Positions 3,646-4,349 of a DNA stretch of 64,000 bases are shown piece after piece (position 1 is the stretch's first letter; each line of letters begins with the position of its first letter). A model generated the notes under the pieces. It did no database searches. It saw only the letters and a program-made list of their open reading frames with translations, and was not told the origin of the DNA. The translations under genes were made by a program, and so were the position numbers. The stretch is from Myxococcaceae bacterium (GTDB lineage Bacteria; Myxococcota; Myxococcia; Myxococcales; Myxococcaceae): the NCBI GenBank assembly GCA_017881265.1, contig JADGRA010000080.1, positions 124,001 to 188,000 of the forward strand, written 5' to 3'.

Positions 3646-3891
3646 CTAGTGCGCGACCGACTGCAGGCGGCCCAGCGCCTGGGCGACGGCCTCCACCACG
3701 TCACGTGGCGAGGGGAGGCTGCCGTGGCCCTTGGTCAGCACCCGAAGCCCATCGACTTCCACCTCGAAGCGGGCGGAGTGGCCCCGTACCAGAACGGCCT
3801 CAACGCCGAGCGCCTCGCGCAGCGCGTCCGCGGCTCGCGTCGCATGGGGAAGGTAGTTGCAGGTGACGCAGTAGAAGATGGTGACTGACAC
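3646..3891 (-). CDS. SelW-like (SelT/SelW/SelH, Rdx family) thioredoxin-fold protein, Cys form
   Basis: An 81-residue protein of the selenoprotein W-related family, with the redox motif FYCVTC (Cys8 and Cys11) after the first beta strand of a thioredoxin-like fold. These proteins are thought to act in thiol redox chemistry, but the bacterial substrate is unknown. It starts at GTG 3891-3889. It is a close paralogue of the TGA-containing gene just upstream (4023-4262) on the same strand. Shared segments include YLP-ATRAA, a VEA-LV-GHS core and a FEV strand followed by SP-VV-AV. The pair lies downstream of rlmH and may be co-transcribed with rsfS-rlmH. Confidence 0.88.
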   Translation of the reverse strand: MSVTIFYCVTCNYLPHATRAADALREALGVEAVLVRGHSARFEVEVDGLRVLTKGHGSLPSPRDVVEAVAQALGRLQSVAH

Positions 3892-4022
3892 AGGCGCGCG
3901 CCCTGTAGCGCGTGCGCCGCGGTTGCACAGGAGAGCGATTGAGCGGGGGTCGCCGCACCCCCTCCTTTCGGCCGAAGCGGTGTGCGGGAGCGGACAGTCT
4001 CCTCACCGGGGTCCCGGGCGGG

Positions 4023-4262
4023 TCAGCCCGGCGGAGCGCTTGAGCCAATCGCCCGGGAGACGGCGTCCACCACCTCGGCAGGGGAGGGGAAGCCCGACCG
4101 ACCTTTCGCGGCGACGACCTTGCCGGCCACAGCGACCTCGAAGATGCCGGAGTGTCCCTTCACCAGAGTCGCTTCGACGTCCAGTTCCTCCTTCAACGCG
4201 GCCGCCGCACGGGTGGCCTGGGGGAGGTAGCCTCAGGAGTTGCAGTAGGTAATGGTCACCAT
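4023..4262 (-). CDS. Selenoprotein W-like protein with in-frame TGA read as selenocysteine (CxxU)
   Basis: From ATG 4262-4260 the frame reads nine residues, meets TGA at 4235-4233, and then continues in the same frame to a TGA at 4025-4023, giving 79 residues if the first TGA is Sec. The local motif is TYCNS-U-GYLP: Cys7 and Sec10 form CxxU, as in animal SelW (YCxxUGY). It aligns without gaps to the CxxC of the neighbouring paralogue. Everything after the TGA is conserved with that paralogue (YLPQATRAAAAL, VKGHSGIFEV, GFPSPAEVVDAV), so the downstream part is under coding constraint. A hairpin 15-33 nt after the TGA fits a bacterial SECIS. Standard gene callers would miss or truncate this gene. 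No strong Shine-Dalgarno sequence is visible. It needs selABCD elsewhere in the genome. Confidence 0.85.
4200..4218 (-). promoter_or_regulatory. Bacterial SECIS-like hairpin in the SelW-like mRNA
   Basis: Counting from the nucleotide after the TGA, positions 15-33 can fold: GGCC-A-CC pairs with GG-C-GGCC (one A.C mismatch), closing the five-base loop CGUGC. The loop starts 22 nt after the TGA and has a G in its first two positions. Both agree with the known bacterial SECIS layout (apical loop about 16-37 nt after UGA). The element lies inside the coding sequence, as bacterial SECIS elements do. The fold was found by eye. Confidence 0.6.
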
Positions 4263-4349
4263 GGCCAGCGGTATTTAACCAAGTCCCCCGTGGCTTGCAG
4301 TACGTCGTGCCGCAGGTGCCGTTCCCCCCCACGGCCACGTGGGTGGAAG

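Follow-up and report, generated by a model that had tools for sequence, protein, structure and literature searches.

A very probable SECIS hairpin in a selW-like selenoprotein gene of a Myxococcaceae bacterium, with a cysteine copy of the gene beside it

SelW-like selenoproteins, and covarying SECIS elements in selW genes, have already been described in other bacteria (PMC1088965, PMC4607533), and the locus that we describe here is a further example. SelW-like proteins were the most abundant selenoprotein family in the Sargasso Sea set (PMC1088965, PMC1794560), and Zhang et al. (2006, PMC1794560) reported that their Cys homologues are very rare or absent in organisms that contain Sec. The epsilonproteobacterial SECIS elements of fdh, selD, and selW have a minimal apical hairpin of 5/6 bp, with covariation and with a loop G that is invariant across families (PMC4607533). 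The consensus for bacterial SECIS elements (Zhang and Gladyshev; summarized in PMC13188914) has a loop of 3-9 nt, a stem of 4-16 bp, 16-37 nt from the UGA to the loop, a G among the first two nucleotides of the loop that is followed by U or G, and a folding energy of -7.5 kcal/mol or lower.

We analyzed a stretch of 64,000 nucleotides from a Myxococcaceae bacterium (the window), which contains a selW-like gene on the minus strand at 4023..4262. If the in-frame TGA at 4233..4235 (minus strand) is translated as selenocysteine, then the product has 79 amino acids, starts with MVTITYCNSU-GYLPQATRAAAALKEE, and ends with GSSAPPG (stop codon at 4025-4023). The selenocysteine would be residue 10, in the redox motif C7-N-S-U10 (CNSU) near the N-terminus, which fits CxxU/CxxC. 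The product is similar to Rdx from Pfam (PF10262; E=1.2e-12, 48.3 bits, with a curated cut-off of 22.6) and to TIGR02174 (CXXU_selWTH) from NCBIfam (44 bits, with a cut-off of 34.2). We predict a small SelW-type redox protein with a thioredoxin fold and a CxxU motif. As in the SelW-like bacterial selenoproteins described before (PMC1088965, PMC1794560), a small CxxU Rdx protein is encoded with a hairpin past the UGA; unlike in those, a Cys copy adjoins the Sec copy. Within the literature on SelW-like selenoproteins that we searched, we did not find the lineage of the window (whose relatives are Corallococcus, Archangium, and Myxococcaceae MAGs), and our literature search for selenoproteins of Myxococcus returned nothing relevant.

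The initial annotation had placed a SECIS-like hairpin at 4200-4218 without giving its strand; it is present there, on the minus strand, and spans +15 to +33 after the TGA. Its sequence is GGCCACC-CGUGC-GGCGGCC, with the 5' arm at 4212..4218, the apical loop at 4207..4211, and the 3' arm at 4200..4206 (all on the minus strand; the arms were read from the sequence, with counts of pairs among homologues). As had been claimed, the stem has seven positions with one mismatch, an A.C at 4214/4204 that also occurs in 9 of 81 other close homologues. The stem starts at nucleotide 15 after the TGA and the first base of the loop is nucleotide 22, so the claimed distance of 22 nt is correct. This leaves 21 nt between the TGA and the loop, which lies inside the published range of 16-37 nt. 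By itself the hairpin folds with six pairs and the one mismatch at -10.5 kcal/mol. Compared with the consensus, no feature of this hairpin is beyond the numbered limits (a 5-nt loop, and 6 of 7 stem positions paired, or all 7 in most relatives).

The SECIS loop of E. coli fdhF is GGUC(U). The loop in the window is C-GU-GC instead, and the GGUC(U) form is present in the genome's own fdhA. Compared with the epsilonproteobacterial elements (PMC4607533), the covarying apical hairpin and the loop G that is shared across families are in common, but the stem here is GC-rich, has seven positions, and is fixed at +15 to +33 in most of the phylum set. A scan of 3950-4300 against Rfam, with E values of up to 5, did not match any model.

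The hairpin is part of the minimum-energy fold whether 60, 56, 41, or 25 nt are folded, and in none of these did we see a stronger alternative fold that would hide the loop. It is no more stable than expected by chance, though, if this one sequence is compared to shuffled sequences (z = +0.67, +0.39, +0.25, and -0.28). These z-scores around zero are what we would expect if the hairpin were a by-product, without function in the RNA, of an Ala/Arg-rich helix whose GC-rich codons happen to fold as GGC/GCC. The stem is indeed dominated by GCC/GCG repeats. The lone sequence is no proof of an element, and the decisive case for the predicted SECIS comes from comparison among relatives, which also bears on the by-product explanation.

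We compared two sets of genomes. The order set has 145 genomes, 87 of them with a selW homologue, and the TGA is at the identical position in all of these homologues except one (L101), which has Cys. The phylum set has 195 genomes, with 100 Rdx genes in 99 genomes, and 97 of the 100 genes have the in-frame TGA. Scanning contigs for further relatives turned up seven named ones (Myxococcaceae/Archangiaceae MAGs and Corallococcus), without adding breadth. One gene from outside the order, L131 (genome G159:C200), encodes an Rdx protein without an in-frame stop and matches Pfam more strongly, at 92 bits, than any other gene.

If the TGA were a true stop, then the locus would be a pseudogene or two short reading frames, and under the standard genetic code (table 11) translation would indeed terminate at residue 9. 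But the TGA and the protein downstream of it are conserved in 97 of the 100 genes from the phylum, and the downstream protein is conserved among the 82 closest relatives as well. We consider a true stop to be extremely improbable.

If the TGA encodes selenocysteine, Sec homologues should have a hairpin at about the same distance. We found it in the same register in 94 of the 97 TGA-bearing homologues and shifted by one base in the other three. The shifted hairpins (L102, L104, and L105) are all from one genus and have a 6-bp stem and a GGUC loop, with the G at +23 and the U at +24 kept. The initial annotation had pointed to a G within the first two loop positions, and among the 94 homologues with the hairpin in register, position +23 is G in every case, while +24 is U in 81 and G in 13. 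Eleven homologues from outside the order (32-49% protein identity) keep the same register with other stem sequences, such as GGCCGCA-AGUCU-UGCGGCC, CGCCGCA-GGUCU-UGCGGCG, GGCUUCC-CGUGU-GGAAGCU, and AGCGGUC-GGUCU-GGCCGCU. In a few of these eleven hairpins, one or two positions do not pair, and in L128 the outer end is open (two outer stem pairs).

The proteins of the 82 closest relatives align without gaps over the first 27 codons that follow Sec, so we could compare their nucleotides column by column. For the Arg in the loop, 70 of these relatives use CGT and 12 use CGG; none uses CGC or CGA. Elsewhere in these genes, just 3% of Arg codons are CGT and 33% are CGC; in six genes from the window, the proportions are 8% and 42%. 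This codon choice agrees with the published G[G/U] rule for the loop (PMC13188914). It also bears out the suggestion that constraints on the RNA and on the protein overlap at these codons.

To see how much pairing the protein sequence alone would give, we redrew the codons of the 82 close relatives while leaving each protein unchanged (300 draws). Of the stem cells, 97.2% are paired in the actual sequences, versus 73.6% in the redraws (standard deviation 1.4, maximum 77.9%). Similarly, 69 of the 82 relatives have all seven pairs, versus a mean of 5.9 and a maximum of 12 in the redraws. Relative to synonymous redraws, the z-score for local folding averages -1.28 (-1.44 for the gene in the window), and of all 24-nt stretches along the gene, +13..+36 has the strongest score.

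The stem also covaries. We ranked the 3,003 pairs of positions in the first 81 nucleotides by which had the most Watson-Crick changes on both sides while pairing remained high, and +18/+30 was first and +15/+33 was second. Both are pairs of the stem, and each joins third codon positions. The relatives include 33 distinct elements, which are 97% paired; compensatory changes, which the initial annotation had proposed comparing, are abundant in these, with five of the seven pairs altered on both sides. There are 25 cells with both sides changed, versus 6.1 in shuffles, and if the partner is slid by 1-3 columns, then pairing drops from 97% to 21-71%. An unsupervised consensus fold returned the same seven pairs. 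On a tree that was built without the hairpin, we counted about four independent double changes for +15/+33 and three for +18/+30; a tree-based sign test went in the expected direction, but with so few independent events it could not reach 0.05.

Judged by comparison across homologues, the putative element is far beyond chance. A by-product of the codons would not explain why 97% pairing is observed when no synonymous redraw exceeds 78%, why the Arg in the loop is usually encoded by CGT, a rare codon, and not once by CGC, or why distant genes hold the register with other letters (compare GGCCGCA-AGUCU-UGCGGCC with GGCUUCC-CGUGU-GGAAGCU above). So, despite the GC-rich repeats in the stem, we consider the by-product explanation to be very unlikely.

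The genome also has the entire machinery for selenocysteine insertion. It contains a tRNA-Sec with the anticodon UCA (67 bits, above the Rfam cut-off), SelA (540 bits), SelB (295 bits, with the GTPase, SelB-wing_2, and SelB-wing_3 domains), and SelD (377 bits), and the gene for SelD has an in-frame TGA itself. This selD (L109, G000:C49:106875-107807) is a selenoprotein gene with the motif HCAGU, and the hairpin GGCGCAG-GUC-CUGCGCC lies about 27 nt past its TGA (L109 about 1532). The gene for the alpha subunit of formate dehydrogenase (fdhA; L117, G000:C50:19381-21243, minus strand) has an in-frame TGA as well, with the context NNIDSCNRT-U-HAPSVAGLATVFG, and the hairpin CGUCGCC-GGUCU-GGCGACG is just downstream. 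The hairpins of selW, selD, and fdhA from this genome all have GU in the loop. We rejected another candidate, a molybdopterin oxidoreductase-like gene with one internal TGA (L130, G000:C38:53500-57055), as no frame has a convincing Sec motif; it might have a frameshift near the end of the contig.

Across the order set, tRNA-Sec was found in 81 of 86 genomes with a Sec-encoding selW, versus 37 of 59 genomes without one (Fisher p=2e-6, but the genomes are related, so this p-value is only a guide). The five genomes that have the TGA in selW but no match for tRNA-Sec (G001, G003, G012, G089, and G124) are all draft assemblies, and the tRNA is likely missing because these are incomplete, although G003 is 97% complete. 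Conversely, 37 of the 118 genomes with tRNA-Sec have no Sec-encoding selW gene; presumably, other selenoproteins maintain the Sec trait in these genomes.

Stem-loops downstream of stop codons can favor read-through generally, so the hairpin might instead promote insertion of Trp, or of another amino acid by a near-cognate tRNA, without any role for SelB. In that case there would be little reason for the gene to lie in a genome with the full Sec machinery, including tRNA-Sec(UCA) and the wings of SelB, or for the loop to have the same G[U/G] as in selD and fdhA. Also, the TGA in the window aligns with the redox Cys of the Cys homologues. We think that such general read-through is most improbable.

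We conclude that the hairpin in selW is almost certainly a bacterial SECIS element, which would be read by SelB. Support from the sequences includes the conserved TGA, the conserved and covarying hairpin, the invariant G in the loop, the complete set of selA/B/C/D, and the loss of the hairpin in the Cys copy (discussed below). In the mechanism that we propose, the ribosome would arrive at the UGA in the mRNA of the selW-like gene, SelB with its GTP and Sec-tRNA(UCA) would bind the loop (G at +23, U/G at +24) through its C-terminal winged helices, and selenocysteine would be delivered instead of termination.

The window also contains a tandem paralogue on the minus strand at 3646..3891, which encodes an Rdx protein of 81 amino acids with Cys in place of Sec (CVTC; Pfam Rdx, 34.6 bits). 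The stretch of this gene that is equivalent to the hairpin pairs at only 3 of the 7 stem positions, and its best fold is different and weak (-4.4 kcal/mol), so the paralogue is a natural negative control. The sequence closest to it is the adjacent Sec copy (58% identity). Two relatives (L021 and L023) share the gene order RsfS, RlmH, selW, and acyltransferase, but there the Sec gene directly adjoins the acyltransferase gene, which leaves no space for a second copy. No other genome among the 195 from the phylum has two Rdx genes. The simplest reading is that a tandem duplication was followed by a change from Sec to Cys and loss of the hairpin, and that this was specific to the lineage; conceivably, the relatives lost a second Rdx copy instead.

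The other Cys homologue in the order, L101, is from a genome (G038) in which tRNA-Sec was not found. Around 626-680 of L101, all seven stem positions can pair, with some G-U pairs, around a GGUCU loop, but this is not the best fold of the sequence. It is possible that this pairing is a remnant, or fossil, of a SECIS element.

At this locus, the constraint that bacterial Sec insertion places on a coding sequence is directly visible at synonymous sites. Our results also document Sec-containing SelW as widespread in this order, where ordinary gene calling would end at the TGA, and the Cys copy beside a Sec copy allows a comparison within one genome that uses Sec.

The loop might constrain the protein too. 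Eight codons past Sec, all 94 genes with the hairpin in register have an NGN codon whose third base is U or G (Arg from CGT/CGG, Ser from AGT, or Gly from GGT). In five aligned members of the family with solved structures, the residues at this position are E, W, W, Q, and W. These few outside sequences suggest that the G of the SECIS loop may dictate this residue, an idea for which we see about an even chance. If so, this residue would be fixed by the needs of RNA decoding and not by the function of the protein, and the position could drift freely in Cys copies. The Cys copy in the window retains Arg there, with the codon CGA.
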